Assembly (NCBI GenBank): GCA_015061725.1
Contig: SUVX01000007.1
Location: 1 to 64,000 of the forward strand
DNA length: 64,000 nt
Origin: Lentisphaerota bacterium
Lineage (GTDB): Bacteria; Verrucomicrobiota; Lentisphaeria; Victivallales; Victivallaceae
Reading direction: 5' to 3'
The first letter of the stretch is position 1, and each line of letters opens with the position of its first letter. Both the position numbers and the translations under genes were made by a program. Under the pieces are notes generated by a model, which did no database searches, was not told the origin of the DNA, and saw only the letters and a program-made list of their open reading frames with translations. Shown one piece after another: positions 1,601-51,033 of the stretch.

Positions 1601-1732
1601 AACAAAAAAAATCCGGCGGCGAGACTCGAAGAGTCAGCCGCCGTACCCCCGGGCAAGTTTGTGAGGGATTTTTAAGGGACTCTTCCCTTAAACGGTCGGG
1701 CAACGCACCCGACCGCTACGCGCTTTTTTTGC

Positions 1733-4317: not shown

Positions 4318-4328
4318 AGAAAAACCTT

Positions 4329-5996: not shown

Positions 5997-6184
5997 TCAA
6001 TTTTTATCCTGATTTAAAAAAGAATATACATGAAGCGGCAGTGTTTTTCAAGTGGAAAACTTTTGTGATTACCGTTTGGAACAGGCAAATCGTTTTTTTT
6101 GAAATGATTTAACTTGAAAACGGCGCAGTTGGCAGTATAGTAAAATAGTGTATTTTTTGTATAAAGTGAAAGAATGAAGGCAAA

Positions 6185-6751: not shown

Positions 6752-6771
6752 ATTATCGGAGAGTTTGGGTT

Positions 6772-7206
6772 ATGAAAAAAAGTCTGTTTCTGTTGTGCTT
6801 TTTGCTGTTGTGCTCCGGATGTACAACTTCAGTCTGCCGGCATTACAAAGTTGCACCTGAAAGCCTGAGCAGTTCCGGACGAATTGCCGTTGCCGGAATC
6901 CGCGGGCAGAATACCGGATGTTATCTCTTTAACTTTATTCCCGTCTGGAGTGGAAAACCGCACCGTCCCAATGAAAAAAAGTGGTCCATGTGGCGCGATT
7001 ATGTCCGCAAGCGGGATATCCGGAAAATGTTTGCTGTCCGTGCCAGGCAGCTTGGTGCTGATGATATTGAGGATTTTTCCGTCACAGAGGAAAGCAGCGG
7101 CTTATGGTCTCTCGGGATCATTTGGACCAGAACGATTTCCGGACAATGCGTTGCTGTAAAAAATCCTTCAGAAAAGAAAAAAAACGGTAATATACCGACG
7201 GAATAA
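6772..7206 (+). CDS. Small hypothetical lipoprotein
   Basis: Signal peptide with lipobox LLCSGC. Confidence 0.6.
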   Translation: MKKSLFLLCFLLLCSGCTTSVCRHYKVAPESLSSSGRIAVAGIRGQNTGCYLFNFIPVWSGKPHRPNEKKWSMWRDYVRKRDIRKMFAVRARQLGADDIEDFSVTEESSGLWSLGIIWTRTISGQCVAVKNPSEKKKNGNIPTE

Positions 7207-7353
7207 GATAAAAATTTCACTCTTTTATAATATTGTTCAGATAATCCGCTTGCAAAAAAAGCTTCTGTGTGCTATTTTGTAGGCGGACATTTGTCTAATT
7301 GTAAAAAAGGATCATTGTGTCTACATACATAAAACATAAAGTGAGGATAGAAA

Positions 7354-8115
7354 ATGAGTCGTAAAATTATTGTTGCCGGAAACTGGAAAATGAACAAGAA
7401 TGCCGCCGAAGGCCGCGCCCTGGTTGAGGCTCTTAAAAACGGTATTGCCGGTTTGGAAGCTGCTGAAATCGTCGTTTGCCCTCCGTTCACTACAATCGGC
7501 AGCGTTGTTGAAGCCGCTGAAGGCAGCCCGATCGGCGTGGGTGCTCAGAATATCCACTGGGAAGCCAACGGCGCTTTCACCGGTGAAATTTCCGCCGATA
7601 TGCTGAAAACTTCCGGTGTTCAGTATGTCATTATCGGACACAGCGAACGCAGACAGTACTTCGGTGAAACTGATGAGACCGTCAATAAGCGTCTGGTCGC
7701 TGCCCTGGCAGCCGGATTCACCCCCATCGTCTGCGTCGGTGAACTCCTTGAAGAACGTGAAGGCGGTAAGACTGAGGCTGTCCTTGCTCAGCAGATCCGT
7801 GTCGGTTTTGCCGGAATCAGCGCTGAAGACGCTGCGAAAATCGTTGTCGCTTACGAACCCGTCTGGGCTATCGGAACCGGAAAAACTGCCACCCCCGATA
7901 TGGCTCAGCAGGCTCATGCATTCATCCGCGGTGAACTGCGCGCTCTCTTCGGTAATGTTGCCGATGATATGCGTATTCAGTACGGCGGCAGCATGAAAGC
8001 CTCCAATGCCCGCGAGCTGGTCGCTCAGCCCGATATTGACGGTGGTTTGATCGGTGGTGCTGCTCTCAAGGCTGATGATTTTATCGCTTTGATCCGTGAA
8101 GCTCTGGCTCTCTGA
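7354..8115 (+). CDS. tpiA: Triosephosphate isomerase
   Basis: GNWKMNK, YVIIGHSERR, AYEPVWAIGTGKTA, GGSMKASNA. Confidence 0.98.
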   Translation: MSRKIIVAGNWKMNKNAAEGRALVEALKNGIAGLEAAEIVVCPPFTTIGSVVEAAEGSPIGVGAQNIHWEANGAFTGEISADMLKTSGVQYVIIGHSERRQYFGETDETVNKRLVAALAAGFTPIVCVGELLEEREGGKTEAVLAQQIRVGFAGISAEDAAKIVVAYEPVWAIGTGKTATPDMAQQAHAFIRGELRALFGNVADDMRIQYGGSMKASNARELVAQPDIDGGLIGGAALKADDFIALIREALAL

Positions 8116-8145
8116 AAAAACATTCCTGCAACAGGAGAATAAAAA

Positions 8146-8556
8146 ATGTCCGTGTTGATCGTTTTTCTTTATGCCCTGGTCGTTGTTGTTTCTCTGCTGC
8201 TGATCGGGCTGATTCTGATTCAACCGTCCAAGTCCGGAGGAATGGGTGCGGCTTTCGGTGGAATCGGTGAGTCCATGTTCGGCGGAAAAGCCGGCAGTCA
8301 TCTGACCAAGGCAACTGTTTGGCTGACTGCGATTTTTATGGTGCTTGCACTTGTTCTTGCCATCCTGATCGGTCACGGTGCCCGCATGGAAAGCGGAAAC
8401 GCAGGTGTTGAAAAGGAACTTGCCGCCGCCGCCAAGGCTGAGAAAAAAGCAGCTCCTGCTGCGAAATCCGCCGCCAAGGCTGAGAAAAAAGCAGCTCCTG
8501 CTGCGAAACCCGCCGCCAAGGCTGAGAAAAAAGCAGCTCCTGCTGCGAAAAAGTAA
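8146..8556 (+). CDS. secG: Preprotein translocase subunit SecG with Ala/Lys-rich C-terminal extension
   Basis: Two TM helices, LILIQPSKSGGMGAAFGG motif; downstream of tpiA. Confidence 0.92.
   Translation: MSVLIVFLYALVVVVSLLLIGLILIQPSKSGGMGAAFGGIGESMFGGKAGSHLTKATVWLTAIFMVLALVLAILIGHGARMESGNAGVEKELAAAAKAEKKAAPAAKSAAKAEKKAAPAAKPAAKAEKKAAPAAKK
8428..8553 (+). repeat. 3 x 42-bp tandem repeat in the secG 3' end (AAKAEKKAAPAAKS/P/K)
   Basis: Units at 8428-8469, 8470-8511, 8512-8553 nearly identical. Confidence 0.95.
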
Positions 8557-34141: not shown

Positions 34142-34226
34142 GCCGGAGTGGCGGAATGGCAGACGCGCTAGACTCAAAATCTGGTACTCTCTGAGTGTGT
34201 GGGTTCAAGTCCCACCTCCGGTACCA
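34142..34226 (+). tRNA. tRNA-Leu (CAA)
   Basis: GCCGGAG...CTCCGGTACCA acceptor with CCA; loop CTCAAAA; long variable arm; GGTTCAAGTCC. Confidence 0.95.
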
Positions 34227-34267: not shown

Positions 34268-34470
34268 ATGGTGGGATAATCAATCTGAAATATGTGCAAA
34301 ATACCGGACACTACCTTTATCTTTGCTTTTGAACCGGACGGCTGTTTTGTATTTTTCCGGAAATCATGCTGTGAAAAATGCTTTTTTCTTGAAAAAAAAT
34401 GCTTTTTGTGCTACAATATGTGACTGGTATATTTTCCTCATGGTACTTTAGTTTACAGGCTGAAATCATA

Positions 34471-35199
34471 ATGAAAAAAAAGCAAAATCTGTTCAACGCA
34501 CTGGAAGGTGTTTCAAAAAAGTCCGCCCATTTGGATTTTTATGATATCCTGATGGTCATCGTCATAGTTATCAGTCTTTTTCCTCTGATGTTCAAAGAAA
34601 AATATCTGTGGCTGAATATCCTTGATGTGGCTGCTTCAGCCATTTTTACGGCAGATTATCTCCTGAGATGGTATACCGCCGATTTGAAATTGAAAAAAGG
34701 AAGAAAGTCTTTTATTTTATATCCTGTTACCCCCATGGCAATTATCGATCTGCTTGCCATTCTGCCCGTGATCATCTGGTTTATTCCCGGACTTACTTAT
34801 TTGCATTTCATCCGATTTTTTAAAGTTTTCCGTACATTCAAACTGCTGCGTTATTCCCAAAGCTGTCTGATGATCCGCAATACGATCTATAAGCAGCGGC
34901 ATGCGCTTTTTTCTGCATATATGTTTGCCGTATTCTATATTTTTATTTCAGCCTTACTGGTCTTTAATGTCGAACCGCAGACATTCAAAACTTTTTATGA
35001 TGCCCTCTATTGGGCAGTCGTGAGTTTGACAACCGTGGGATACGGGGATATTTATCCGGTCAGCGCTGTCGGCAGATTGGTGACGGTTATCTCGGCTTTT
35101 GTCGGAATTGCCATCGTCGCATTGCCGTCGGGTATCATCACTGCCGGATATATGGCTGAACTTGAAAAGTCTTCAAAAACTGATCCGGAAGAAAAATAA
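34471..35199 (+). CDS. Voltage-gated-type potassium channel (6TM, TVGYGD filter)
   Basis: YWAVVSLTTVGYGDIYPVSAVGR; upstream TM helices. Confidence 0.9.
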   Translation: MKKKQNLFNALEGVSKKSAHLDFYDILMVIVIVISLFPLMFKEKYLWLNILDVAASAIFTADYLLRWYTADLKLKKGRKSFILYPVTPMAIIDLLAILPVIIWFIPGLTYLHFIRFFKVFRTFKLLRYSQSCLMIRNTIYKQRHALFSAYMFAVFYIFISALLVFNVEPQTFKTFYDALYWAVVSLTTVGYGDIYPVSAVGRLVTVISAFVGIAIVALPSGIITAGYMAELEKSSKTDPEEK

Positions 35200-35236
35200 T
35201 TTTCCAAAAAAGTAACAAATTAAACCACAGCGATTT

Positions 35237-37114
35237 ATGATTATGAACGAAAAACAGTGTTTTTTTACGGATACTTTAAAAATTCCGTTGATTGTCGGCA
35301 TAACAGGACATATTGACATCCTCACCCCCGAATCAGAAATAAAAACGCAACTCAACATCTTCTGGGAAAAACTGCAGTCTCTTACAGGTCCGGATACCCC
35401 CATTATCCTGTTGACTTCAATTGCCGCAGGCGCCGACCATCTGACTGTAAAATATCTTCCTCAAAACGTCAAATACTGCGTTGTTCTGCCGTTTGACGAA
35501 GCGGAATACCGCAAAGATTTTTCCGGACAGGATCTTGCAAGCTTTGAAGATGATCTCAAAGGCGCTTTCAAAGTCATCTCCTGTCAGGCAGAAGCCGGAA
35601 ATTATGCGCCGGCAGCGGATTATATCCGCAGATACGCCGATGTGCTTCTGTCCATGTGGGACGGATATGCAAATCTGGACACTCAAACCGGCAAAGCTGA
35701 ATCAGGCGGCACATATTACCAGATCAGGGCGGCTTTCGGCATGGACGATCTGCTGTTGAGTCATCAGGAAAAGAAACACCTGATTGTCAATCTCCCTGTT
35801 GTCCGCAGCAGAAAGGGTCCGGAATATCATTTGCAGCACGGAGAAAAACTTATTCCCGGATATCCGGAAAACAATCTTCTCTCTGCCATCACGCGGAAAG
35901 AGGAAACAGAGGAACTTATCTTTACACCGTTTGCAGACTACAGCATTACTTCCGCCGGAGATTCTCCGGATTCTGAAGAAAATATCGAGTTCCCGCAAGT
36001 TCTTGAGTTTCTCAAAAAACATAACGCAAATCTGCCCGCAACGCCGTATCATGATCCGTATCTCCGCCCCGAAATGGAAAAATTCCCCGAAGCAATGAAT
36101 ATCGTTCAGGATGATTTTTCAAGATACGAATACTTTGATGCAAAATCTCAAAAACATCAGATTCCGCATAAGAAACAGTTTTTTTTGATTGCTCTGTTTT
36201 CAATCTTCATCGGAATTCTGGGACAGGCTTGGGGAGATTTGGATTTCAGCGAAGAGGTCATCCACTGTATTATCTTTTTATATCTGCTGGGTTGTGCCGC
36301 AATTTTTCTTTACGGACGGAAAATCGCCCGTGAGAACCATTATTTGCATTATCTCAATCCGCGCATCATTGCAGAATTTCTCCGCCTGAAAATATTCTGG
36401 AAACTGTCAGGCATCCGGGAGTCCTTTACGGACTATCTGCTGGAAGAAAGCGCAAGTTATCTGTTTGCACTGCCGTTCAGCAACTGGATGATTGCAGAAA
36501 GACCCCTGCCTGAGGAAACTTCAAAATGGCTCGACGACGGAAAAGGTCTGCCGGCGGTCAGCAATTGCTGGCTGAAAGATCAGAAAAATTATTACAACAG
36601 TTATCTGCTGCCGGATTCCAATCACTTTTTATTGAGTCAGCCCGGGGAAAAATGCAAAAATCTCCCGTTCCTTTCTCCTCAATGGCTCAAACAATATTTC
36701 AAGAAATATGAACGCCTTGCGGGGTATTCAAAACTCGGTAAAAACTTCTTCACCTGGAGCGCTTTTATTCTCTCCGGAGTGTTGATTTGCATATTTATTG
36801 CTGCAAAAATTTTCAAATTTGACCACACAGAAGTATTGTGGCTTTCCTTTTACCGGGAGTTTCTGGTCGGAATATGCCCCTTTACAGTCGCAACTCTGGG
36901 CTGGCTGCTTGAAAAGAAAAATTGGGACTCCCTCGGATATCAATACCGCAATACCGTAAAACTGTTTGACAAGACAATCAAATTTGTCGAGAGCAATAAT
37001 CACACAGTGGAAGAAAAAAAGCAGATTATCAAAGAGCTGATGCTCTATGCCCATCAGGAAAATACCGAATGGAACAATATTAAAAAGAATGCCGAACCTG
37101 AACCGATGATGTAA
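35237..37114 (+). CDS. SLOG-like (LOG/LSDAT superfamily) N-terminal domain fused to C-terminal transmembrane (SLATT-like) region
   Basis: PLIVGITGHIDI...LLTSIAAGADHLTVKYLP...ADVLLSMWDGY; two hydrophobic hairpins (FFLIALFSIFIGILG / FTWSAFILSGVLICIFIAAK). Confidence 0.65.
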   Translation: MIMNEKQCFFTDTLKIPLIVGITGHIDILTPESEIKTQLNIFWEKLQSLTGPDTPIILLTSIAAGADHLTVKYLPQNVKYCVVLPFDEAEYRKDFSGQDLASFEDDLKGAFKVISCQAEAGNYAPAADYIRRYADVLLSMWDGYANLDTQTGKAESGGTYYQIRAAFGMDDLLLSHQEKKHLIVNLPVVRSRKGPEYHLQHGEKLIPGYPENNLLSAITRKEETEELIFTPFADYSITSAGDSPDSEENIEFPQVLEFLKKHNANLPATPYHDPYLRPEMEKFPEAMNIVQDDFSRYEYFDAKSQKHQIPHKKQFFLIALFSIFIGILGQAWGDLDFSEEVIHCIIFLYLLGCAAIFLYGRKIARENHYLHYLNPRIIAEFLRLKIFWKLSGIRESFTDYLLEESASYLFALPFSNWMIAERPLPEETSKWLDDGKGLPAVSNCWLKDQKNYYNSYLLPDSNHFLLSQPGEKCKNLPFLSPQWLKQYFKKYERLAGYSKLGKNFFTWSAFILSGVLICIFIAAKIFKFDHTEVLWLSFYREFLVGICPFTVATLGWLLEKKNWDSLGYQYRNTVKLFDKTIKFVESNNHTVEEKKQIIKELMLYAHQENTEWNNIKKNAEPEPMM

Positions 37115-37162
37115 TCCGGTTCTGTCACAACATTCTTACGCAAAAAATTCAAAGGAGATTCT

Positions 37163-37759
37163 ATGGCAAAGCCGCTTCAATTCCGCCTGGACGGCTCAAT
37201 ATTTGAAGGTGTTCCGGTCAAACTGGAAAGAGAAAAACTTTACGGTTATGCGGATACCATTGCAACCACACAGGACGGCAACCCCTGTATTCTGGCAAAT
37301 CTGGATGCCGGCGGCACGCTGGTCATTCCGCCCGGAGCGATAAAAAACGGTACCGTTGATGAAAACGGCATGTGGTTTGAAAAAGCGGAACTTACCGCCG
37401 TGGATATCTCCGGCAAACCCGCTGAACTGCGTGCTTCATCGTTTGACGCACCTGTGGATTTGACAGAAACAGTCAGTGAAGAAACATTTTTTGATAATGT
37501 CTGGAACTCCGTCTACCAGATCATCAATCCGGAACTGGCGGAAAAACTGGGTGATAAAATATATAAATTTCCCTTCAACTATCGTGCCGGAACCGGTAAT
37601 GATGACGGTTATCTGCTCTCAGCAAACGGTCTGGTTTATCTTTTTTCAGGAGATGCCATCAGCTTTCAATACCTGGGACTGGGTGAAGAAGGCGTACTGG
37701 ATGGTGAGATTCCGGATGAAGAAATGGATGATGATGAACTTGATTTCGATTTGATGTAA
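37163..37759 (+). CDS. Unknown protein with acidic C-terminus (DEEMDDDELDFDLM)
   Basis: Intact ORF with SD (aaaggaga), between SLOG and ligase genes. Confidence 0.7.
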   Translation: MAKPLQFRLDGSIFEGVPVKLEREKLYGYADTIATTQDGNPCILANLDAGGTLVIPPGAIKNGTVDENGMWFEKAELTAVDISGKPAELRASSFDAPVDLTETVSEETFFDNVWNSVYQIINPELAEKLGDKIYKFPFNYRAGTGNDDGYLLSANGLVYLFSGDAISFQYLGLGEEGVLDGEIPDEEMDDDELDFDLM

Positions 37760-37771
37760 GGAAAATCTGAT

Positions 37772-38470
37772 ATGCGGGCAATACATATTTCAAATGAAAA
37801 AAAGCGCGATGCACAAGTGGGTTTTGAAGCTCAGAGTGCGGATGTGAAATTGTTTTTCCTTACACCTGAGGGCGGCAGAACGTTCAATGAACGCTATGTG
37901 AAATTCACGATGGATACTTCTGCTGAAGTGCTGGAAGAAAAATACGGCGATCTGACGGATGATATCATCGCCGGAGACCCGGAAATCGATTTTGAAAAGG
38001 TCGGAAAAAAACTCTCTGAATTGAAGAAAGTTTATCTTACTTCAAACGGTCAGGTTGCCTACGGTGTCAATTTGACTGAACACATTTATCTGCCGGACGG
38101 TACAGAAAAAGGTACCCGTCCCGTCACCCGGACCCAAGCCAATATCTCGCTGGATGCCCTGCCGGTGTGCTGGACGGGAAAAATGATTTCCAAGTCATCT
38201 GCGCTGCGGAAATTCGTATTCAGCAGAAGTTATCAGCTGCGGCATGTCAACGGACTGACGTTTGACTTCCTTTACGATATGGCAAAAACGCTCGCTGAAA
38301 AAAAAGCTCTGATGCTTATCGGTGGCGGTGAAAAAGGAACAGAGCCTCTGGTCATGTTCAACGGCGGCGTCGCTTACCGCGCTTTTCTCGAAGGACGGAT
38401 CGACGGAAACAAATATATGCTCATTATGCATTTGACCAACCTTGAACTTAAGGAGCTGCCCAATGCCTGA
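37772..38470 (+). CDS. Unknown protein
   Basis: Intact ORF; 12-bp gap upstream, 8-bp overlap with ligase gene. Confidence 0.7.
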   Translation: MRAIHISNEKKRDAQVGFEAQSADVKLFFLTPEGGRTFNERYVKFTMDTSAEVLEEKYGDLTDDIIAGDPEIDFEKVGKKLSELKKVYLTSNGQVAYGVNLTEHIYLPDGTEKGTRPVTRTQANISLDALPVCWTGKMISKSSALRKFVFSRSYQLRHVNGLTFDFLYDMAKTLAEKKALMLIGGGEKGTEPLVMFNGGVAYRAFLEGRIDGNKYMLIMHLTNLELKELPNA

Positions 38471-39824
38471 CAATCCTATCAACTACGCGCAAATTGCAAT
38501 TGATTATAAGCATAAGACTTCTTTTATTTTAACTTGCAAAGAACAGATTTCTTCAAGGATCAGCGGCAGAAATATCGCCGTCACGAGAAAAATCGACGGC
38601 ACTATGCAAATTGTCTTTTTCCATGACGGCAAGGTATGCATGGCAAACACCGGCGGAAAAGTCCTGGAAAATCTGCCCTGTCTGGATGATTTTGCGGAGC
38701 AGCTCAAAAAAGCGGGTATCCGATCGGCAACGGTTGCGGCTGAACTTTATGTTCCCTCTGCCGGAGTCCGTCCCCGCTGTTACGATACTTTGCAGGCACT
38801 TAAAGACAAGACGCCCGACAGCGCAAAAAAACTCTGCCTTGCGCCGTTTGATCTATTGGAGCTGGAAGGAGAATCTTTCAAAAACTGTCATTATGAAGAA
38901 AAACACGCAAAACTTGCAGAACTTTTCGACAGTGATTTTGTCCGTCCGGTAGAAATGCAATCGGTCTCTTCTGTTTCAGAAGTTGAACAGATTTTCTCGG
39001 AATGGGTCATCGAAGGCGGTGCTGAAGGATTGGTCGTTCACTCCGAAATGCCGTTTTCGTGGAAGGTCAAACCGCGCCACACGATTGACGCCGTTGTCGT
39101 CGGATACACCGTCAACGGCAATGAAATCAGAAATCTGCTGTTCGCCGTGTGCCGCGGGGACGGCAGTTTTCAGGTGTTCGGGGTTGCCTCCAACGGATTG
39201 ACTGCCGGGGAACGTATTTCTCTGCCGGTCGAACTGGAAAAACAGGTCGTTCCCTCTGAATATATCCGTACGGATTCCAGCGGCATTGCGTTCAGAATGG
39301 TCCGTCCGCAAAGGGTTTATGAATTGAGTGTCGGAGAATTCATTTCAGAAAACCACCTGGGCAAAATCAGGTGGAATCCCCTGCTGGAACTTACTTCAGA
39401 CGGTTGGAAATGCAAAGCCCAGACACCCGGCGTATCGGCAATTGCCATGAGTATCGTCCGTTTCCGTGAGGATAAAGTACCGGAATTTTCTTTTATTCCC
39501 GTCAATCAGTTGTCGGACCTCTGTCCGTTTGCAGAAAAACAGCAGAATCTTTCCGGCGATCCCAGCACAATTCTGGCGCGGCGGGTTTTTAAAAAGGTAT
39601 CCGGTGCCAAGACGATGGTCCAGAAATTCATCATCTGGAAAACCAACAAGGAACATACCGGCAACTTTCCCGCTTACATATTCCACCACACCGATTACAG
39701 TGCCACCCGGAAAGAGGCACTCAAACGCGATTTGCGTACATCCTCAAGCGAAGAGCAGATACGCAGAATCATGGATGATTTTATCGCCGGAAATATCAAA
39801 AAAGGCTGGGAAGAAGTTTTGTAA
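38463..39824 (+). CDS. ATP-dependent DNA ligase-like protein
   Basis: Motif I RKIDG, VAAELYV (motif III), GGAEGLVV (motif IV), WKVKPRHTIDAVVVGY (motif V), OB-like tail with VRFREDK. Confidence 0.72.
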   Translation: MPDNPINYAQIAIDYKHKTSFILTCKEQISSRISGRNIAVTRKIDGTMQIVFFHDGKVCMANTGGKVLENLPCLDDFAEQLKKAGIRSATVAAELYVPSAGVRPRCYDTLQALKDKTPDSAKKLCLAPFDLLELEGESFKNCHYEEKHAKLAELFDSDFVRPVEMQSVSSVSEVEQIFSEWVIEGGAEGLVVHSEMPFSWKVKPRHTIDAVVVGYTVNGNEIRNLLFAVCRGDGSFQVFGVASNGLTAGERISLPVELEKQVVPSEYIRTDSSGIAFRMVRPQRVYELSVGEFISENHLGKIRWNPLLELTSDGWKCKAQTPGVSAIAMSIVRFREDKVPEFSFIPVNQLSDLCPFAEKQQNLSGDPSTILARRVFKKVSGAKTMVQKFIIWKTNKEHTGNFPAYIFHHTDYSATRKEALKRDLRTSSSEEQIRRIMDDFIAGNIKKGWEEVL

Positions 39825-39902
39825 ATCAAATACAAACAGTTATTCTGTATTTATTGGTAATGTCTGCCGCTTAGTTCAAATATTTAATTTTCAATCAGCC
39901 GT

Positions 39903-39930
39903 GGAAAAACAAATTCCATTTTGTTTTTCC
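39903..39930. terminator. Hairpin between convergent genes
   Basis: GGAAAAACAAA (39903-39913) / TTTGTTTTTCC (39920-39930). Confidence 0.45.
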
Positions 39931-40281
39931 GGAACCGGATGTACCACCCTGTCCACACTCGTTTTTTTCATTTTTTTATACTACTTTTGACACTATCGTT
40001 TGATTAAGTGTGTGGTAACAATAATCAATCACAGAAACAGGCTCTTTTCAAGCCCTCTTTCTGAAAATGTGCGCAATTTCCCGGACGTTATCTTTCCTTG
40101 TCTGTAATCGTCTGTAAAAGTCCGTAAACTTTGCGGCATAACCTTGACGCGGATTTATGAAGCATTTTGCGGTGCATGAAGCGAAAGCCTTGACAGGCTT
40201 CAACCGGTTTGCCCCCCCGAAGATTGCTTGCGAGGCGCCGCCGCAGGTTGTGTTTTTTACAAAAAATGAGACAATAACTAT

Positions 40282-41625
40282 TTATTCATGACGGTTCATT
40301 CTCTCAAGAAAAACCGTCATGAATTTTTTATCATCCACCATGCAGGGGGCAATTTTAAACAATTCTTCAAGGGGGAGCTGACTCCAATCAAGAGAAGAAA
40401 TCACCGTATGCAGTGCAAAGGGGGAAAATCCGTTTTCTTTCAGAATCAGATACAGCTGCGGAATATCAACACCTGTTAGACGGCTGATGTGTCTTGCCAT
40501 GACGCCGGGGGAGAGAAATGAAAGTATCCTGCTGATTTGTTTAAAAGTACCGTGTTGGATCGCAAGACGCAGAAATTTCACCAGATAACACTCCAGACGG
40601 ACTGTCCGTGTGCCGGATTCAAGGTCCCGGCGGTGCCAATCGAGTTGTTCTTCATGATTTGTAAATGTTTCATCTTTTCCGATACGGCAGAGGACATCCC
40701 ACGCTTCTTCAAACCAGTTATCAAAACACTCTGGCGCATATTCTGCAAACGACAGCCAGACGTCTCCGGCGTGGGAATAATGATACATGACTGGAGCAAT
40801 TTCCTGCAATTGGCTGTTGTTTTTATATCCGGAGAAAAACGTATTTGACGGATTACCGATTTCTGTAAGCAGCTGCATGACAGCTTTTCCGGATTTCAGA
40901 TTTTCTTTTTTCAGCAATTCAAAGAGTTTCAGCAATTCCGGAGTCGGCGTTATGTCACGCAGTGCAGGTGCTTCAGGCAATACACAACCCGGGGCAGGCT
41001 CCTGAAAAATCATTTCCTGTTCAAAGCGGACAAATGCTTCAGCAACATTGAGATTTTTGTATATATTTGAATCCTCAGAACAGGCGGAAGAGTTTCCCCG
41101 ATGGAAACGTTTGCGGAGAATTGAGAGTTTTTCAGGTTCATCACATGCGGCGATTCTGTTCAGGATATCCTGCTTCAGATAGTATCCGTCAAGCAGAAGA
41201 ATGACTTGAACAAGCTGTTCTTCTGTCAGAAATTTTGACGCCTGAGCAAGAGCGATCCTGCCGGCAAAATCTTTCTGTTCTTCGCTTAAACGGGATATGC
41301 ACCCACTGCAGTTGCGCTGCATTTTTGCAATGATTTCAGACACATTCCAAGAGCGTTCCCGGCTTACGGCAAGCAGAAAACAGCCCGAAAGAAAATAAAT
41401 TTCCGGTGAGGGGAGCGTATCAAGTGCATCAAGAGCCTGTGACAGTGAACACTTGGCATTGAACACAGTTTTCAACTGCAATCGGCGCATATTCTTTTGT
41501 TCAAGATATTGTCCGGCTTTCAGAAAGATTCCCGGCAGGAGCGATTTATCCGGTGTGCGGTTGTAATTTTCAATGTCTTCCAGCAATTCCCGGCGGCTGA
41601 TCAAATTTTTTATGGTTTCACTCAT
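40282..41625 (-). CDS. Helical-repeat protein, paralogue of the C-terminal module of the adjacent TIR-STAND protein
   Basis: HTVISSLDWSQLPLEELFKIAPCMVDDKKFMTVFLERM matches the C-terminal HTVYRILAVQAWRSLPFADLCAISPCMLNDNAFLNTWLNGM of the neighbour; start MSETIK overlaps neighbour stop (ATGAGTGA). Confidence 0.7.
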   Translation of the reverse strand: MSETIKNLISRRELLEDIENYNRTPDKSLLPGIFLKAGQYLEQKNMRRLQLKTVFNAKCSLSQALDALDTLPSPEIYFLSGCFLLAVSRERSWNVSEIIAKMQRNCSGCISRLSEEQKDFAGRIALAQASKFLTEEQLVQVILLLDGYYLKQDILNRIAACDEPEKLSILRKRFHRGNSSACSEDSNIYKNLNVAEAFVRFEQEMIFQEPAPGCVLPEAPALRDITPTPELLKLFELLKKENLKSGKAVMQLLTEIGNPSNTFFSGYKNNSQLQEIAPVMYHYSHAGDVWLSFAEYAPECFDNWFEEAWDVLCRIGKDETFTNHEEQLDWHRRDLESGTRTVRLECYLVKFLRLAIQHGTFKQISRILSFLSPGVMARHISRLTGVDIPQLYLILKENGFSPFALHTVISSLDWSQLPLEELFKIAPCMVDDKKFMTVFLERMNRHE

Positions 41626-44600
41626 ATATCTTACCACCTTTATTCTGTTCTTCGTCGGAAAAATCCAGTTCAGGACAATATTCAATAACAGTATGCACCA
41701 CTTGTGGCGGCATGGGACGCAAACTTTCTAACATGCCATTGAGCCAGGTGTTGAGGAAAGCGTTATCATTGAGCATACACGGAGAGATGGCACACAAGTC
41801 AGCAAACGGCAGAGACCGCCACGCCTGTACTGCCAGAATACGGTAAACGGTATGCCGGCCCCATTCAAGACGCAATAACGCGCCGCACAATTTTACCGGT
41901 TCTCTGAACGTCATCCGCCTGCTGCATTCAACAAGCATATTTGCGGAAAACACAGGAATACCCCCACGGGAAAATGAAAGCAGTTTTTCAACTTGTTCAC
42001 AAGTTCCTCTTGTTACGGTAAAATCAAGCAATCTGCCAAGCAGAAAATCCGTGTCGTCTCCGTTACCTGCAAGCGTGATATCCGGCAGACATCGGCTGTC
42101 ATTCAGCATGGCAAGAGATTCGCTGAACCAGTCATCCGGCAGATTACCGCATTGTTCAAGACGGCTGAGCAAAGTCTTCAAAGTGCCGTATTTGTATCCG
42201 GTTGCAAGTTCTCCTGCTTTTTCACAATACTGCTCCCATGAAATCAGCCAGCTGTAATCGCACAGAAACGCTTCGGCAAACAGTTTCACGCCGGAATATT
42301 TCTGACACGCCTCTGATTTCATCTCCATGAGAACCGCGGCGGCTCTGCGGGCATTTTCCTGTTCACGGAACTGATACAGCATACGCGGTATTTCAGAAGA
42401 AAATCTGCCGCCCGATTCTCTGCCGAGCCGGATGACTTCAATGAGCGATTCCGGTACCTGCCACAAATAACCGGGATCTTCCTTTTTCATGGAACAGTGA
42501 TACGCAAGCAGTTTTTCAACGCCATCAAACAACATGGAGCCTTTGTCTTTATCCGTCATGGACGCATTTTCAAAGAGTGCTTTTATCTCAGGAATCTTCT
42601 CACGGATAATCAGACAGTAAACTCTGTTGTGCGTATATGCGCCAAGGTGACGGATACACTTGTTGAGAAAATCCTCATCCGTACTGTCAAACAGCAGCAT
42701 ATTTTCAAACGGTCCCCTTCCGGAAACGGCAGGTTTGAAGAACTCCAGTTCTGCAATGCTCTTTGTATCCAACCGGGAAACGTATCTTTGAATCAGCTCT
42801 TTTGTGTACGGGCGCAGCTTTTCGCGCAGTTCGCCGGAGTTTTTTCCGAGAATACAGAGGATTTCGCCGATTTGTTCTGTTAACTCCTCTTTTTTCAGTC
42901 CGTCAGCGCGCTGTTCAAACAAAGAGAACAGTCTGTCGATGTAAGTTAACTGAATTTCGGGAGAAACGCCCGTCCGCAAAACTTTTTCAGCGATGGATTC
43001 AAGATCGGTCTCTCCGAAAATCCGGCTCAGGATTTCATCCGTCTGATGAGAACTTTTCAAACTCAGGAACCACGGGGAACATCTGTTTTCAGACAGAAGT
43101 TCCTGCCGTTTTCCGACGGCAAGTTTCCGCAGAAAAAGCGGTGATTCCCCGGCATCGCACAGCTGCCTGAATATGCGGACAAGGTTCGGTGCTTCCAGCG
43201 ACTTCAAGCACCAGTTTTCGTAATTTTTTCCTTCAGAAATCCCGCCGGGAAAAACAAGTCTTGAAATTTCCGCTGCAAGAGCATACTGTTTCTCTTTCAT
43301 CAGGTCTGTCAGGAGACTTTCCGCCTCAGGCATTGTCAATTTCCGGAAAATCTGCGGCGAAGTTCTGATGATTTTGCCGACATTTTCCCACATACCTGCT
43401 TCAGACATAACAGACAGCCGTTTGAAGACTGATACACCGTTCCGGATGATTGAACGGGAACTTTCCGCAGGAAGAAAAAAGTGTCTTTCAAAGAGAGAAA
43501 GAGCTTTTTCATATTCTCCGTATTTACACAACTCCGCCGCAAAAGCTGCAGGCGTTTTTTCACAACTTTTTGAATGAGCAAGCAAAAAGTTCACAGCCTT
43601 GTCGCGTGCGCCGGATTGATGGAGCAAGCCGGTTGTTCTGAAGATGAAAAAGGGATCATGATCCTCTGACGGATCATCTGTTAAGTCACAAATTTCATCA
43701 AGACAATTTTGCGCTGAAAATCCTTCACTGCTGCATATATCATGGACAAGCAGACTGTTTATGAAATCAGAATACGCTTCATCTTCAAGATCCCGGTCAT
43801 CACCCGTATCAGGCGGAGCAAACTCCAATCCCGTGTAATGATGCAGGTTTTCAAAATGCAGCATTGCCCCCATCGTATTGGCAGAAGTGCTTCGTGCAGA
43901 CATCGCATCAAGAATGAGTTCTCTTGCCTGCTCTTCTTCAATGATTTCCAATACACGCTCCAGGACATCGACTGACAGAAAGGGCAGAGCTTCACTCAAC
44001 GGACCATATCCGAGAAAGAGACAATCATGGACTGAAAGAACGGAGTCATAATTTTTTCTGTTGTGATGGTCAATGAAATCAATATATGAAACGGCAGCAA
44101 TATCGTATGGAATCACACGGGAATTTCTGAATCCGTAATAATACTCCTGCCCATACAACTCCGGCAGATCAGACGGAGAAAAAGCCCAATCCCCCTCATC
44201 TGAAATTGAAGCTGCAACGGCAGAAAGCTTTCCACGGCACTTCTGTTCCATCGTTGCAATCAATGGTTCAACATCTTTTCCCTGTTTTGCGGCATGAGCC
44301 AGAAGACGGCAGCCGATCAAATAACAGACTTTTGCATCATCCACACAGTTCATGACTTTCAGGGCATACTTCAAGTCATAGCCGTGCTCCGGCAGTTCCA
44401 TAAGAGCTCCCTTTTGTTTTTCCAGCAGAGAGCGGTATGTTATCATCAGACGGCATATTTCCGGCAGCTTCTCAATAAGCGGAGAAACGCTTGTTTTACC
44501 GAAAAAAGCGATTGCTTGAGCGCAGTCTTCAAGACTTGAAACGTAATCGCCCAGATATTTTTTCTGTTTTTCAAAGAATTCGGGAGATTCTCCGCCGAGA

Positions 44601-47482
44601 ATTTTCCACAATCTTGCGGAATCATTCAAGGCAATCAAATGACTGACCGCATAGCGCAGTGCGTATGCCAGATTGGAATCATTCCCGTCTGCGGCATATA
44701 TTTTACCGAGAGAAAACTCCGCAAGCATTTTATGTCCGTTGAAACCGTCTATGCGGTACAAAGAATTTTCCGGCAGAGCCAGGAGCCACTCCCAGATGAA
44801 TTTGTGGATAAAACGGAAAATACGCCGTCCGTTGTCATCAAAGATTTCTGCCAGCGCACCGAGAGTTGCCAGAGAATCTGCAACTTCAGCACAGGATAAT
44901 ACAAGTCCGTTGGCGGCGGCAGACGCTTGCAGAAGTTCGACGGTGATATCTCCGCAGCAGGCAGAGCCGATTTCAAGCAGCGGACGTAATTTTTCACGGA
45001 AAAACGCCAGTTGTTCCCCCCGGTACTGCCGGTTGAAATACCGGGCGAAAATACTTTCTATACCGGAAGGCAGTTCTTGAATATCCTGAGCTGTCAGTCC
45101 CCGGGTTACGATATCACGGCAGACGATACGCAGATACAGAAACATATTTTGACTTTTATCAATCAGCTGATCAAGAACTTTTCCGGTAAATCCTGTTTGA
45201 GAGAGCGCAGCGGCAACGGCTTTAACACCGGAAGTTTCAACATGCGGAACCAGCGTTTTCAATTCATAACAGAGGTATTCCAGCATATCCGTCCGCTGAC
45301 CGCCTGAGATATTTTCAGAATCAAACCGTTCAAGATGATACGGTTCAAGCAGCTTTAAAATATTGCAGTCCGGGCGGGTCGTAACGACAACTTTCAGCCA
45401 GGATGGCAGCTGATCCAGATTTCTGACAAGAGTGCTGACAAAAGGATTGCTGCCGTTCCTGTCATTTGCTTCATCCAGAGCATCAAGGATGATCCAGCGG
45501 TTTTCCTGAGAGGAGACATTTTCAAGAGGAAGAGTCAGCAGTTTTTCAAAAAGTTCATTTTCTTCAAGCGCATCAAGATCGTTTATGCTGTGCAGAACAT
45601 CCAGCAATGCGGTCCGGTATGTTTCCAGGCGCATTGCCAGCTGAAAAGCCAGACTGCGGATGATTCGTCCTGCCGTAAAAAGGGAGGGCATGTTCCATTC
45701 GATAAACTGTGCGGCAACAACTTTCTGCGGCTGAAGCGCACGCAGATTCGCCGCAAAAATGCTTTTTCCGAACCCGGGACCTGCGACAAGTCCGAACAGC
45801 TGAGAGGGACTGTTGTCCCAGCGGTCAATGATTTCAAGCAGCCATTCTCTGCCCAGAAAAGGAGAATTGAGAAGTTCTCCCAGACGGGCTTCAAAAGAAA
45901 ACGGTTCAAGCAGATGATTGAGTTCCTCCATTTCTTTGCAGAAAGTCCGATGTCTGTCATCATCGATCCACTCAATAAGACTGTTTACGGCATGAGTAAA
46001 TGCTGTGTTATCTGCTACGGACGGCCAATTGCGCAAATCCACACATTTCAAATAACTGAGCTGATCCGGCACGCGCGCATCTTCAAGCTGAACCGGCAGA
46101 CTCGGCATCAAATGTTCAGGTGCGCCGACGGCAATGCGGATTTCGGTCTGACAAAATTCAGATTTGACGGAGTGTTCAGAGAGAAATGCGAGAAACAGCC
46201 GGCTGTGCCGGATTCCGTCATAAATTTTTCTGCGCCAGTCAGAACCTGCGGGAATACCGTATTTATCGATCCATACTTTGTGTCCGCGTCTGACAAGTTC
46301 TTCGCGGATTGCGACGACCTTATCCGTATGGATATCGTGTCCGTAGCTTATGAAAACCGGCAGACGTTCTGCTGATTCTTCAGATGAAATGGCATTTTTT
46401 TCATCATCTGCGACACTTCCGGACACAACAGGAGCATCCGTAAAACGGAAACTTCCGCCGGGCGCAGAATGTTCCGGCAGCGTATAAAATTCTGCCGTTC
46501 TGCCGATGAGTTCTCTGATCCCGGAATCAGGACGGGCTGTTATAATAATATTCAGCCAATCCGGCAGCTGATTGGCATCCTCTATCAATATTTCGGCAAG
46601 CGGATTTCTGTGATGGTGATCGTTCAGATTTTCAATTCCATCCAGCAGCAGATAATAGTGCTGATTGGGATTTTCACGCCGCAAGGGTGTCAGAATAAGA
46701 ACATTGAAAAGAGAACTTGCATCCAGAGAATCAAGGTTTTTCCTGATTTCTCCGGCAAGAGTCTGTCTGAATTGGGCAAGATTGGCGGCAAGCTGCGCCG
46801 CCAGATTTTTGATGATTTGTTCAGGCGTGGCACAGTCATTTATGAAATGTGCGGCAATTACTTTGTTTCCCTGTTCAAGAAGCAGCTGAGCCGACACATG
46901 ACTTTTGCCGCTTGCCGCACCGCCTTCTATGATGAAGATTTTGGAAGAATTACGGTTGTCCCAATTTTTGATCCGTTCAAGAATATCATTCATTTCGCCG
47001 GGACGGGGGATATTCTGCAACATTTCAAGCCGTCCGGCAAAGGACAGGGGGGAGAGCCGGAGATTGATATTTTTCTGTTCCTCCTGAAAAATATCTGCGT
47101 TCAGCCAATTGAGCAGACCGGACTTGAGTTTTTCAAAATTACTTCCATCTTTTTCAAGCAGAAAGGCCTGATTGCTGCTGATACAATCAGGAATAATATT
47201 GCAATCTGTTACCACAGGAAAAATTGAAAGAAGATGTGCCGGAGTACTTTTTAATTGCGGCAGCAAATCTTCCGGAAAACCGTCAGAAACAAACAACAGA
47301 ACACGGCTGAACTGCGCCAGTTTTTTCCGGATGTTCCAAACATCATTCAGTTCGTTTTTATCCGGAATAACACATTGAAAATCATGCTGTTCCAGAAACG
47401 TTCCGATTTCAGATACAAGTCCGGCATGCTCCCCGCTGCTTATGATGAGAAGTTCTGATGAAAATTCTGCAATTTTATCCAT
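41618..47482 (-). CDS. Giant (1954 aa) TIR-domain protein with two STAND/NACHT-type NTPase modules and C-terminal helical repeats
   Basis: P-loop 1 EGGAASGKS, Walker B YYLLLDGIE, ITARPD; TIR PVFISYGHD...HKVWIDKYGIPAGSDW...FLSEHSVKSEFCQTEI; P-loop 2 VAGPGFGKS, Walker B RWIILDALDE, VTTRPD. Confidence 0.88.
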   Translation of the reverse strand: MDKIAEFSSELLIISSGEHAGLVSEIGTFLEQHDFQCVIPDKNELNDVWNIRKKLAQFSRVLLFVSDGFPEDLLPQLKSTPAHLLSIFPVVTDCNIIPDCISSNQAFLLEKDGSNFEKLKSGLLNWLNADIFQEEQKNINLRLSPLSFAGRLEMLQNIPRPGEMNDILERIKNWDNRNSSKIFIIEGGAASGKSHVSAQLLLEQGNKVIAAHFINDCATPEQIIKNLAAQLAANLAQFRQTLAGEIRKNLDSLDASSLFNVLILTPLRRENPNQHYYLLLDGIENLNDHHHRNPLAEILIEDANQLPDWLNIIITARPDSGIRELIGRTAEFYTLPEHSAPGGSFRFTDAPVVSGSVADDEKNAISSEESAERLPVFISYGHDIHTDKVVAIREELVRRGHKVWIDKYGIPAGSDWRRKIYDGIRHSRLFLAFLSEHSVKSEFCQTEIRIAVGAPEHLMPSLPVQLEDARVPDQLSYLKCVDLRNWPSVADNTAFTHAVNSLIEWIDDDRHRTFCKEMEELNHLLEPFSFEARLGELLNSPFLGREWLLEIIDRWDNSPSQLFGLVAGPGFGKSIFAANLRALQPQKVVAAQFIEWNMPSLFTAGRIIRSLAFQLAMRLETYRTALLDVLHSINDLDALEENELFEKLLTLPLENVSSQENRWIILDALDEANDRNGSNPFVSTLVRNLDQLPSWLKVVVTTRPDCNILKLLEPYHLERFDSENISGGQRTDMLEYLCYELKTLVPHVETSGVKAVAAALSQTGFTGKVLDQLIDKSQNMFLYLRIVCRDIVTRGLTAQDIQELPSGIESIFARYFNRQYRGEQLAFFREKLRPLLEIGSACCGDITVELLQASAAANGLVLSCAEVADSLATLGALAEIFDDNGRRIFRFIHKFIWEWLLALPENSLYRIDGFNGHKMLAEFSLGKIYAADGNDSNLAYALRYAVSHLIALNDSARLWKILGGESPEFFEKQKKYLGDYVSSLEDCAQAIAFFGKTSVSPLIEKLPEICRLMITYRSLLEKQKGALMELPEHGYDLKYALKVMNCVDDAKVCYLIGCRLLAHAAKQGKDVEPLIATMEQKCRGKLSAVAASISDEGDWAFSPSDLPELYGQEYYYGFRNSRVIPYDIAAVSYIDFIDHHNRKNYDSVLSVHDCLFLGYGPLSEALPFLSVDVLERVLEIIEEEQARELILDAMSARSTSANTMGAMLHFENLHHYTGLEFAPPDTGDDRDLEDEAYSDFINSLLVHDICSSEGFSAQNCLDEICDLTDDPSEDHDPFFIFRTTGLLHQSGARDKAVNFLLAHSKSCEKTPAAFAAELCKYGEYEKALSLFERHFFLPAESSRSIIRNGVSVFKRLSVMSEAGMWENVGKIIRTSPQIFRKLTMPEAESLLTDLMKEKQYALAAEISRLVFPGGISEGKNYENWCLKSLEAPNLVRIFRQLCDAGESPLFLRKLAVGKRQELLSENRCSPWFLSLKSSHQTDEILSRIFGETDLESIAEKVLRTGVSPEIQLTYIDRLFSLFEQRADGLKKEELTEQIGEILCILGKNSGELREKLRPYTKELIQRYVSRLDTKSIAELEFFKPAVSGRGPFENMLLFDSTDEDFLNKCIRHLGAYTHNRVYCLIIREKIPEIKALFENASMTDKDKGSMLFDGVEKLLAYHCSMKKEDPGYLWQVPESLIEVIRLGRESGGRFSSEIPRMLYQFREQENARRAAAVLMEMKSEACQKYSGVKLFAEAFLCDYSWLISWEQYCEKAGELATGYKYGTLKTLLSRLEQCGNLPDDWFSESLAMLNDSRCLPDITLAGNGDDTDFLLGRLLDFTVTRGTCEQVEKLLSFSRGGIPVFSANMLVECSRRMTFREPVKLCGALLRLEWGRHTVYRILAVQAWRSLPFADLCAISPCMLNDNAFLNTWLNGMLESLRPMPPQVVHTVIEYCPELDFSDEEQNKGGKIYE

Positions 47483-47838: not shown

Positions 47839-50800
47839 TTATCTGGTTTCAAGAACCGCTATGCTGTCAAGATAATACTTTTTGATGAACTTGCCTGAGG
47901 GATCAAGTTCGGTCTTGATTCTGAACGCAAGATCAGCTTTTCTGCAGTTGAAACTCTTGAATAATTCATTCAGAGATCTTTGGAACTCGCAGCTGATGTG
48001 CGTGTGCGCATAACCGTTGTTGGAAATACCGGCGTTTGAAAGAATATACCAGTGATAATTATTGTCCGCAAAAAAGGCTTTTCCGGCAATGCTGCGGGAA
48101 TAAGTCTTTTGATTGGCACGGTCAAAGTATGCCACGCGGATTCCGCGCGCAACAGGGTCATTGACTTCACGCACCAGAGCCACTCCTGCGATGGCAGCTT
48201 TATCCGCCGTCTTTTTCACCTTGTACTGAGCCGGAATATCATTGGCGTCATAGACGGTGATGATCTTCCTGCCGGACAATTCCTTTTTAACAATGTCTGA
48301 AATCCCCAGAACGGCAACTGCATCAAGATAAATCTTTTTGATGAATTTTCCGGAGGGATCAAGTTCCGCTTTGAGTCTGAAAATCACCTCACCCCTGCCG
48401 TCGGGCAGAAGTCCGGCAACCGTATCAAGACGCTGCTGGAATTCGGTGGAAGTGTGGACATGTGCATAACCGTTTTTGCTGATGGAAACCACCCCCGCAC
48501 TGTACCAGTGGTATTTGCCGTCAAACTTGAAGTTTTTGGCGGTGAAGTATCTCAACCAGGACTTCTTACTTGAAATATCATAGTACCCGATACGGATTCC
48601 GCGCGCGACGGGGTCATTCACTTCACGCACAAGAGCTGCGCCCGAAATGGAATCACGGTCGATGACTTTTTTCACTTTGTACTGCGGACGCAGTTCCGTG
48701 AAACGGGCAGCAACTTTTTTCCCCTCAAAACCCTCAATGGCTCCGAAGTTCTGAGCTTTGGGTTCAAGCAGAAGCACGCCATCCATCCAGAGCTTGGCGA
48801 TTTTGGTTTTGTCGGCAGGATCAAGTTCAGCTTTAAGTTTGATGTAAATATCCGCGCGGTTGTCGGGCGTGGTATTATAAACTTCATGCAGACGGCGCTG
48901 CATTTCCCAACTGTAATGGGCAAAGACGTAGCAGCTGGGAGAAAGGAGAACATCTCCGATCCTGTACCAGTGATACTTGCCGTCAAAATTAAACTCATCC
49001 CTGCTCAGAGTCCGGCGGACAACTTTTTTGCCGACAGAATCATTGTATCCGAAAAAAACGCCCTTTGAAAGTGGATATTTGTCGGCAAGATACAGAGCAG
49101 TTCCGGTCGCGGAATCGGCATCTTTACCGATTTTTGCCCGATACTGGGCGGGGAAGGAATTGCCCTTGAAATGGGCAATGACTTTTCTGCCCGGGAACTC
49201 CTTGACAGGAAGGGTATCATAAACCGGTCCCTGAGCAGAAATCTTGACCTGACGGAGTTCATCCTGCAAACGTTTCCCTGAAAGGTATTCCGGCGCAATA
49301 AGGGTGAAATCCTCAACCAGACGTTTGGCAACAACGGTTTTTCCCGGCGCAAGATTGGCGGGAATCTGCGGCAGCATCAGGCGGATACGGTCAAAATTGA
49401 CCCGTTCGCGTTTGATTTTTTTGATCAGTGCCTTATCATTGCCCGCCTTTTTCAGTGCGGCATTGAAAAGTTTTTCAGCAGAAGTAAAGTATTGGGCATT
49501 GAGATTTTTTCTCTGCGTCATGGGAACGGTAATTTTGCCGTTCAAAGACTTGTTTTCTGTGAGAATCAGGGCGCGGAGAGCCTTCATTTCAGCAGAGGCT
49601 TTTCCGTAATAAGCGGTCATGAAGCGGTCAATTTCTTTAGCAGCATCAAGAGAGGGGGTGTTCCAGAATCTGTGGACAAGATACATCCGCAGGGGGTGGA
49701 AACTGGTGTGAAGGGGGTCTTCGATCTCGCCGAACATGACTTCAACCTGTCCGTTATAATATTTGAGGTTGCTGCAAATGGCGTCGGCGTTATCGGTCAG
49801 AAACCCGCGTTTCTGCCAGGTGATGAAGTAATCCCAGATAGAGAGTTTTCCGAAAGAGGCCCACTTTTTGAACTCCGTGAGTGCTTTTTTATTCACGGCG
49901 TGATGAAGCGGCAGAAGAGATTCCCGTTTGGTACGACTGAAACTGCTGAAGTCTTCCCACTCCATACCCATCTGAGCGATACCGGGAATGACATTCTTTT
50001 CAATTTTTGTTCCGGGAACAGGCGGGTTCTGAGCAAAGAGATACGCCGAAAATTTAAGTTTTACATGCGGATATTTCTTTGCGACAGAGCGGGCGAGGTA
50101 ATTTACAAAATCAATGACAAGTCCGGTATAATTTCCCAGTTTCTTTGCGGCGGCTTTGCAGTTGGCGCACACGCAGGGGTAGTTGTTGTCATTGGCAGAA
50201 ATGGCATAGCAGACAGGCGGAGCGTCTTTGTGTTCCGCCATATCCTGCTGAATGAATTTTTCCAGCTGGGCGGCAAAGAGTTTGCGCACCTCCGGATGCG
50301 TGAAACAAATCTGTCCGGGACCGGAAGGACTGGTTGCGCGTTCACGTTTGCCGTTTTTGGGAGAGAGCGCAAAATATTCATCAGGCGCATTCTTCCACTC
50401 GCGGGTGTAGTAATAAAAGGTATGATTGGCGCGCGGTCTGCCGAAGTAGGGCGTCAATCCATGCGCTTTCATGTGCGGATGAAGTTTTTCATTCAAAAAG
50501 AAGTTTTGTCTTGAGCGCATACTCCACAGATGACGTCCCTTGTTATCGCGGGGAAAATAGGAGTAAAGCGCACGCCATTCAAAGGCGGGTTTGCCCGTAA
50601 TTTTGCAGTTTTTTGTCCAGACAGGTTCTTTATCGGGACCTTTGGTGGTGTATTGATCGAGGAACATCACATTGGCAAAACGCTCCAGAAACTCATAAGA
50701 AGCGTAGACAACGCCCCGTCTGCCGCCGTTGAGGATAAGAGTATTGGCGTCAACAGCTTGAATCAGCCATTCTTCAGTATCAAACTTGCGGACGGCATTA

Positions 50801-51033
50801 TTCTTTTCGGCAAAAGCGGTATTTCCGACATAGATAACTTTGCCTGAAGTTTTTGTTCCCTCTTTGACAAGAGAAATCTGCGAAACTTTTTTAAGCAGAA
50901 CCTGCAATTCCTGTGCCGCTGTTTTTTCAGTAACAGAAGCGTTGTTCGGCAGAACGACAGTAATTTTACCTGCGAAAGCAAAAACGGCACCGCACAACAA
51001 CGTAAAAATCAAAAATTTTTTCATTTTCAACAA
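47839..51033 (-). CDS. DUF4838-type secreted protein with three tandem C-terminal ~145-aa modules
   Basis: Signal peptide; TAAQELQVLLKK...NGGRRGVVYASYEFLER; three FDGKYHWY/NNYHWY modules. Confidence 0.85.
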   Translation of the reverse strand: MLKMKKFLIFTLLCGAVFAFAGKITVVLPNNASVTEKTAAQELQVLLKKVSQISLVKEGTKTSGKVIYVGNTAFAEKNNAVRKFDTEEWLIQAVDANTLILNGGRRGVVYASYEFLERFANVMFLDQYTTKGPDKEPVWTKNCKITGKPAFEWRALYSYFPRDNKGRHLWSMRSRQNFFLNEKLHPHMKAHGLTPYFGRPRANHTFYYYTREWKNAPDEYFALSPKNGKRERATSPSGPGQICFTHPEVRKLFAAQLEKFIQQDMAEHKDAPPVCYAISANDNNYPCVCANCKAAAKKLGNYTGLVIDFVNYLARSVAKKYPHVKLKFSAYLFAQNPPVPGTKIEKNVIPGIAQMGMEWEDFSSFSRTKRESLLPLHHAVNKKALTEFKKWASFGKLSIWDYFITWQKRGFLTDNADAICSNLKYYNGQVEVMFGEIEDPLHTSFHPLRMYLVHRFWNTPSLDAAKEIDRFMTAYYGKASAEMKALRALILTENKSLNGKITVPMTQRKNLNAQYFTSAEKLFNAALKKAGNDKALIKKIKRERVNFDRIRLMLPQIPANLAPGKTVVAKRLVEDFTLIAPEYLSGKRLQDELRQVKISAQGPVYDTLPVKEFPGRKVIAHFKGNSFPAQYRAKIGKDADSATGTALYLADKYPLSKGVFFGYNDSVGKKVVRRTLSRDEFNFDGKYHWYRIGDVLLSPSCYVFAHYSWEMQRRLHEVYNTTPDNRADIYIKLKAELDPADKTKIAKLWMDGVLLLEPKAQNFGAIEGFEGKKVAARFTELRPQYKVKKVIDRDSISGAALVREVNDPVARGIRIGYYDISSKKSWLRYFTAKNFKFDGKYHWYSAGVVSISKNGYAHVHTSTEFQQRLDTVAGLLPDGRGEVIFRLKAELDPSGKFIKKIYLDAVAVLGISDIVKKELSGRKIITVYDANDIPAQYKVKKTADKAAIAGVALVREVNDPVARGIRVAYFDRANQKTYSRSIAGKAFFADNNYHWYILSNAGISNNGYAHTHISCEFQRSLNELFKSFNCRKADLAFRIKTELDPSGKFIKKYYLDSIAVLETR

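Follow-up and report, generated by a model that had tools for sequence, protein, structure and literature searches.

Seven genes lie between positions 34,471 and 47,482 of a 64,000-nucleotide stretch of a Lentisphaerota bacterium genome (contig SUVX01000007.1, positions 1 to 64,000; hereafter the window), and the question that they raise is whether such a tightly spaced neighbourhood is a single system. The source genome is 3.85 Mb and 97% complete, and the contig to which the window belongs is 79.4 kb long. A sequence-only reading had described a plus-strand run encoding a K+ channel, a SLOG-like membrane protein, two unknown proteins and an ATP-dependent ligase-like protein, which converges on genes for a TIR-double-STAND protein and a coupled helical paralogue, and had proposed that these constitute a TIR-to-SLOG signalling module of Thoeris-like logic. 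All seven open reading frames are present where that reading placed them and its main domain calls hold; the single module, however, is not supported by the gene neighbourhoods of other genomes or by a search of carrier genomes. The two unknown proteins and the ligase, designated here UA, UB and LIG (37163-39824), are instead an independent conserved unit, and we consider it probable that they make up a DNA end-joining operon similar to those of non-homologous end joining (NHEJ), in which two divergent proteins of predicted Ku fold would act, probably as a heterodimer, together with a dedicated ligase.

The UA-UB-LIG cassette

The cassette forms the downstream part of the plus-strand run, and its features are as follows.

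37163..37759, plus strand: UA, predicted Ku-fold protein with a conserved acidic-hydrophobic C-terminal tail (AlphaFold2 and Foldseek, alignment)
37721..37756, plus strand: UA tail EMDDDELDFDLM, similar to the C terminus of single-stranded DNA-binding protein (SSB) (acidic patch and invariant F, 28/28 homologues)
37772..38470, plus strand: UB, predicted Ku-fold protein and most conserved cassette member (AlphaFold2 and Foldseek, alignment)
38463..39824, plus strand: LIG, ATP-dependent DNA ligase with nucleotidyltransferase, OB and ~100-aa conserved C-terminal domains (DNA_ligase_A_M 2.5e-12, TIGR02779 6.8e-17, invariant motifs)
38589-38600, plus strand: LIG motif I, KIDG (motif residues)

The intergenic gaps of the plus-strand run are 37, 48 and 12 nt and UB overlaps LIG, in agreement with the tight gaps and single overlap described earlier. 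A more plausible start for LIG is the ATG at 38463, right behind an AAGGAG ribosome-binding-like site, with which the overlap is 8 nt.

UB, the more conserved of the two unknown proteins, served as the probe for a survey of neighbourhoods. Relatives were found at 32 loci in a genome-contig collection, in six of 200 genomes of the same class, and in five of 395 genomes of the Bacteroidales, the order of one Bacteroidota carrier (one of these matches being weak); overall, some 35 other genomes, representing at least eight phyla, have one. The carriers belong to the Lentisphaeria, Bacteroidota, Anaerolineales, Propionibacteriaceae, Peptococcaceae, Treponema and Acidobacteriota, and to deltaproteobacterial and myxococcal bins, and one Lentisphaeria metagenome-assembled genome is among the sources of close relatives of the cassette genes. 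Of the 37 UB loci compared, a few of which are the same genome reached by two search routes, 32 have UA next to UB and 31 have LIG there; contig ends account for several of the exceptions, while four loci (L020, L025, L035 and L039) seem genuinely to lack the ligase. The genes usually follow the order UA-UB-LIG and are separated by a few tens of nucleotides.

None of the loci compared contains a relative of the SLOG-like membrane protein (referred to below as SLOG-SLATT) or of the TIR-STAND protein, and SLOG-SLATT was not found anywhere in the eight carrier genomes searched whole, in a search that had no positive-control genome. A phage or plasmid origin of UB was considered and rejected, as searches of 50,697 phage records, 72,556 plasmids and the viral contigs gave no relative. 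Because UA-UB-LIG recurs in at least eight phyla without these companions, and UB is missing from those three collections, the cassette is an independent conserved unit, and the ligase and the two unknown proteins are not supported as parts of the proposed TIR-to-SLOG module.

Predicted fold of UA and UB, and the ligase

Ku is the DNA-end-binding ring of NHEJ. Searches of Pfam, PADLOC, NCBIfam and PHROGs with UA (198 aa) and UB (232 aa) gave no match better than 0.5, and PADLOC has no match for LIG either. AlphaFold2 models built from alignments of 28-29 sequences (predicted local distance difference test, pLDDT, 80.1 for UA and 74.9 for UB) were compared with the PDB using Foldseek, and for both proteins the top 50 matches are all Ku. 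The best match of UB is to a bacterial Ku (E 8.9e-7), with 48/48 matches at E<=0.001 being Ku, and the best match of UA is to Bacillus subtilis Ku (2.7e-4); the matched bacterial Ku chains, with 224-267 residues, are comparable in size. In a viral library the only confident matches of the UB model (probability 1.00) are Ku from Mycobacterium phage Dylan and a homologue of Ku from an uncultured phage, the next match having E 0.11 and probability 0.06. The models thus suggest that UA and UB are both Ku-like, a relation of predicted fold that was found independently for two neighbouring genes; the claim rests on fold because sequence profiles miss Ku. Canonical Ku (PF02735) is absent from the source genome and present in only one of the 200 class genomes and in two of 30 carrier genomes; since the source genome and 28 of the 30 carriers lack it, the cassette is not a helper of an ordinary Ku.

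The nucleotidyltransferase and OB domains that characterise ATP-dependent DNA ligases are both present in LIG, which bears out its earlier description as ligase-like. With residues counted from 38442, the motifs K50-x-D52-G53 (motif I), E101, E195-G196, K208-x-K210 and R342-x-D344-K345 (motif-VI-like) are invariant in 21 homologues. The best NCBIfam model is the NHEJ ligase domain TIGR02779, at a score below its equivalog cut-off. The conserved C-terminal domain (about aa 370-460) has no Pfam match, and a WGR-like label suggested by eye was dropped. No polymerase or nuclease domain is fused to LIG, which comprises only the three domains listed.

All UA homologues end in the acidic patch, followed by the invariant Phe and hydrophobic residues (consensus DD-I-DF-S-M-L, pattern DD[IL]DF.[ML]). 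The C-terminal tip of SSB is an established protein-recruiting tail, and that of UA resembles it in sequence. If these parts work together in end joining, UA and UB would pair as a heterodimeric ring that threads onto double-strand DNA ends; the ring would hold LIG at the break, perhaps through the acidic tail of UA and the extra C-terminal domain of LIG, and LIG would seal the joined ends.

Several observations weigh against this proposal. The models are of middling quality (pLDDT 75-80) and represent one sequence per family, their TM-scores to Ku are below 0.5 (mostly 0.3-0.48), and root-mean-square deviations are 6-13 A. HHalign comparison of UA or UB with 38-40 canonical Ku proteins gave results no better than with column-shuffled Ku, and the Pfam Ku family is matched by none of 57 UA/UB family members even at E<=10, such that proof of Ku homology at the sequence level was sought and not obtained. 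LIG, for its part, falls under the cut-off of every NHEJ-ligase model, its nearest structures by profile are archaeal DNA ligases and LIG1 rather than LigD (DNA ligase structures at 1e-22), and no polymerase gene adjoins it in the window. The lack of sequence similarity to Ku and the low TM-scores, along with the SSB-like tail of UA, could also be accounted for if UA and UB were small beta-barrel adaptors or single-strand-binding proteins unrelated to Ku, and the cassette a ligase for replication or repair that stems from a mobile element since lost. We think this unlikely, given that two independent models compared with two libraries point specifically to Ku, other folds falling well behind, and that UB is missing from the phage, plasmid and viral collections.

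Repair or defence: neighbours and known systems

The genes beside the cassette in other genomes suit DNA-end metabolism as well as conflict systems. The recurrence of DNA-transaction genes among them (AEP-TOTE primase, SF2 helicases, an NAD-ligase-like protein) counts in favour of end joining. An AEP-TOTE primase gene follows the ligase in L034 (Pfam-tested), with clustered counterparts downstream of LIG in L029 and L040, and this type of primase can be likened to a split LigD polymerase domain. A Strawberry-notch-type helicase gene is located downstream in L023, with a counterpart in L025, and kinase, vWA, PP2C and AAA genes in a TerY-P-like arrangement are downstream in L030, with counterparts in L023 and L025. 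The vWA genes at these three loci are curious, since in eukaryotic Ku70/80 a vWA domain is part of the protein itself. Elsewhere the cassette is accompanied by genes for an NAD-dependent-ligase-like protein (L036), PD-(D/E)XK and DUF2779 proteins (L014), and an AAA ATPase, MoxR-like by eye, with DUF2201 (L010). Downstream of LIG in L009 (6384-8523) and L041 (10526-12695) there is a conserved pair, in which a gene for a DUF932-like protein overlaps that of a small SF2 helicase.

It is possible, if doubtful, that the cassette serves defence rather than housekeeping repair, with the Ku-like pair sensing phage DNA ends and variable partners (helicases, nucleases, kinase-vWA-PP2C or MoxR-vWA proteins) acting on them. 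The spread of UB is patchy in both the class and the Bacteroidales, the variable neighbours (L030, L023, L025, L014 and L010) are typical of conflict systems, and kinase-vWA-PP2C (TerY-P) triads are known companions of restriction systems (PMC11090510). PADLOC nonetheless matches none of the three proteins, no effector gene is constant, and the cassette by itself has the parts for end joining.

The prevailing view is that end joining in bacteria depends on a single recognisable Ku homodimer together with LigD, and that this machinery is missing from most Bacteroidales, Lentisphaeria and comparable lineages of the gut. The cassette is like bacterial NHEJ (Ku homodimer and LigD in Mycobacterium and B. 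subtilis; kuA, ligC and polK in Streptomyces) in its predicted Ku fold, its ATP-dependent DNA ligase and the adjacency of the genes, and also in the AEP-type primase gene that lies just downstream in some acidobacterial loci. The literature describes the canonical Ku of bacteria as a homodimer (PMC12784961), whereas the cassette encodes two Ku-like proteins that are unlike each other and escape every Ku profile; it differs further in that the ligase is stand-alone with an unnamed C-terminal domain, UA has an SSB-like tail, and the lineages concerned are mostly without canonical Ku. In having two different Ku or Ku-like subunits and an ATP-dependent ligase it recalls eukaryotic Ku70/Ku80 and DNA ligase IV, although UA and UB are of core size and have neither a vWA nor a SAP domain fused to them, and vWA occurs as a gene of its own near only a few loci.

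No published description of the cassette was found in the full-text literature, most subscription literature being outside the search. Ku with an ATP-dependent ligase is already known; what is new here is that the Ku-like part consists of two subunits which profiles miss, is encoded with a ligase of its own and bears an SSB-like tail. If the end-joining interpretation is correct, Ku-based end handling is wider than Pfam shows, extending to at least eight phyla, and UA and UB would provide a small bacterial model for a Ku heterodimer that bears on the origin of Ku70/80. With only three small proteins involved, the claim can be tested directly.

The TIR-STAND, SLOG-SLATT and K+ channel genes

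Separate from the cassette are the accessory genes, those of the K+ channel, SLOG-SLATT and the TIR-STAND pair, and with their associated features they are located as follows.

34389..34417, plus strand: sigma-70-like promoter ahead of the five-gene run, its second hexamer preceded by TG (consensus match only)
34471..35199, plus strand: 6-TM-type voltage-gated K+ channel, S5-pore-S6 with TVGYG (Ion_trans 1.1e-25, Ion_trans_2 7e-16, filter motif)
35237..37114, plus strand: membrane protein with a SLOG-like domain and two SLATT-like regions of two transmembrane segments each (SLATT_1 4.4e-4, below cut-off; transmembrane segments; relatives with SLATT_3, SLATT_4 and SLATT_1 matches)
40282..41685, minus strand: helical paralogue of the TIR-STAND C terminus, 68-nt overlap (E 1.8e-8 to the TIR-STAND C terminus)
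41618..47482, minus strand: TIR-STAND receptor with degenerate TIR-STAND1, intact TIR-STAND2 and helical repeats (TIR_2, NPHP3_N twice)
46019..46357, minus strand: intact TIR domain (aa 376-488) with putative catalytic Glu447 in SEFCQTE (TIR_2 3.5e-25, aligned with AbTIR and Cat1)

The Ion_trans match and the TVGYG filter confirm the K+ channel, which is of an ordinary type and is present in 21 of 30 carrier genomes, mostly at a different place in the genome from the cassette. Channels ~42% identical to it lie within ~3 kb of UA-UB-LIG in two Bacteroidota loci (L013:12864-13580 and L014:6559-7365), and its proximity there and in the window is probably above chance expectation, but not general. 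As a conserved partner of the cassette the channel was rejected, being absent near it elsewhere.

The SLOG-SLATT protein is likewise a module separate from UA-UB-LIG. It has strong transmembrane segments at aa 315-333, 341-359 and 508-526, and its SLATT assignment draws on matches that are all below cut-off, including those of its relatives to SLATT_3 (6e-4) and SLATT_4 (0.0025). No SLOG model matches it, the SLOG-type motifs VGITGH, AAGADH and GGTYYQ having been read by eye only. SLATT domains are predicted to form nucleotide-responsive pores (PMC7159879). The channel and SLOG-SLATT genes are near enough upstream that they may be co-transcribed with UA-UB-LIG in this genome, and one could imagine a DNA-end-sensing conflict system in which a core of Ku heterodimer and ligase is equipped with variable modules, here a SLOG-SLATT pore and K+ channel in one transcription unit, and elsewhere kinase-vWA-PP2C, MoxR-vWA, helicases or nucleases. 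Exposed DNA ends, for example those of a phage, would then trigger repair, capture or membrane collapse. We find such an arrangement quite improbable.

Relatives of SLOG-SLATT occur in three of 199 other genomes of the class. The closest (60% identity, L057) is a SLOG-SLATT-SLATT protein (1127-3139) whose gene is immediately followed by one for a DUF4062-STAND (DUF4062-NPHP3_N)-propeller-SEC-C protein (3225-8159); the two more divergent relatives (L058 and L060) stand alone. DUF4062 is a TIR-like NADase in antiphage defence according to a preprint (PMC13174449), and the L057 pair is possibly a two-gene TIR-like/SLOG-SLATT system. The similarity to the Swarozyc/DUF4062 TIR-like NADases applies to L057 only, as the TIR of the window is of the TIR_2 type.

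On the minus strand, the TIR-double-STAND assignment stands, with the refinement that STAND2 is a tandem copy of the STAND1 unit or the reverse (33% identity, E 2e-36), the first of the two carrying a degenerate TIR remnant. The P-loops are intact (GGAASGKS and GPGFGKS), and the intact TIR keeps the putative catalytic Glu position. The coupled gene, recognized correctly as a helical paralogue, duplicates only the helical C-terminal repeats of TIR-STAND and has no other copy in 200 class genomes, whereas partial relatives of TIR-STAND, mostly TIR-only matches, are found in 12 other genomes of the class. The fusion of a TIR to an NPHP3_N-type STAND NTPase and helical repeats is like that of other TIR-STAND/NLR-like bacterial receptors, from which this one differs in the tandem duplication with its degenerate first TIR and in the overlapping second gene that duplicates the sensor repeats.

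In the model put forward originally, TIR-STAND makes a NAD-derived nucleotide that is sensed by SLOG, whereupon SLATT or K+ channel pores open, the ligase and unknown proteins being parts of the same Thoeris-like system. The intact Glu position, the SLOG and SLATT-like architecture and the order of genes in L057 speak for it, and the window, like Thoeris (ThsB TIR and ThsA SIR2-SLOG), has TIR and SLOG-type domains in one neighbourhood. Unlike Thoeris, however, it has no SIR2, SLOG is fused to SLATT, the TIR is inside a STAND receptor, and the TIR-STAND and SLOG-SLATT genes are convergent and not in one operon; Thoeris models match only the TIR of the window, weakly (ThsB). With the other UA-UB-LIG loci devoid of TIR-STAND and SLOG-SLATT, the latter missing from all eight carrier genomes, its relatives alone in L058 and L060, and the helical paralogue confined to this genome among 200, we judge the complete model quite improbable. 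The expected co-occurrence fails for three of the five plus-strand genes. For SLOG-SLATT there is one independent precedent, a relative beside a TIR-like STAND gene, by analogy with which a link from TIR/STAND to SLOG-SLATT in the window is conceivable. The proposed island is mostly a chance neighbourhood, a caution against taking close gene spacing in a single genome for a functional module.

The tRNA-Leu gene at 34142-34226 was considered as an integration site and set aside. The island genes are missing at the matching site in five of five congeners, aligned by the neighbouring CorA-like gene, and no att site can be named because the 3' end of the tRNA is not repeated in the window and the congeners have no tRNA-Leu at that site. 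Beyond the TIR-STAND gene, a large protein is encoded on the minus strand at 47839-51033 of the window, and its C-terminal part seems to hold three repeats of one ~150-aa module.

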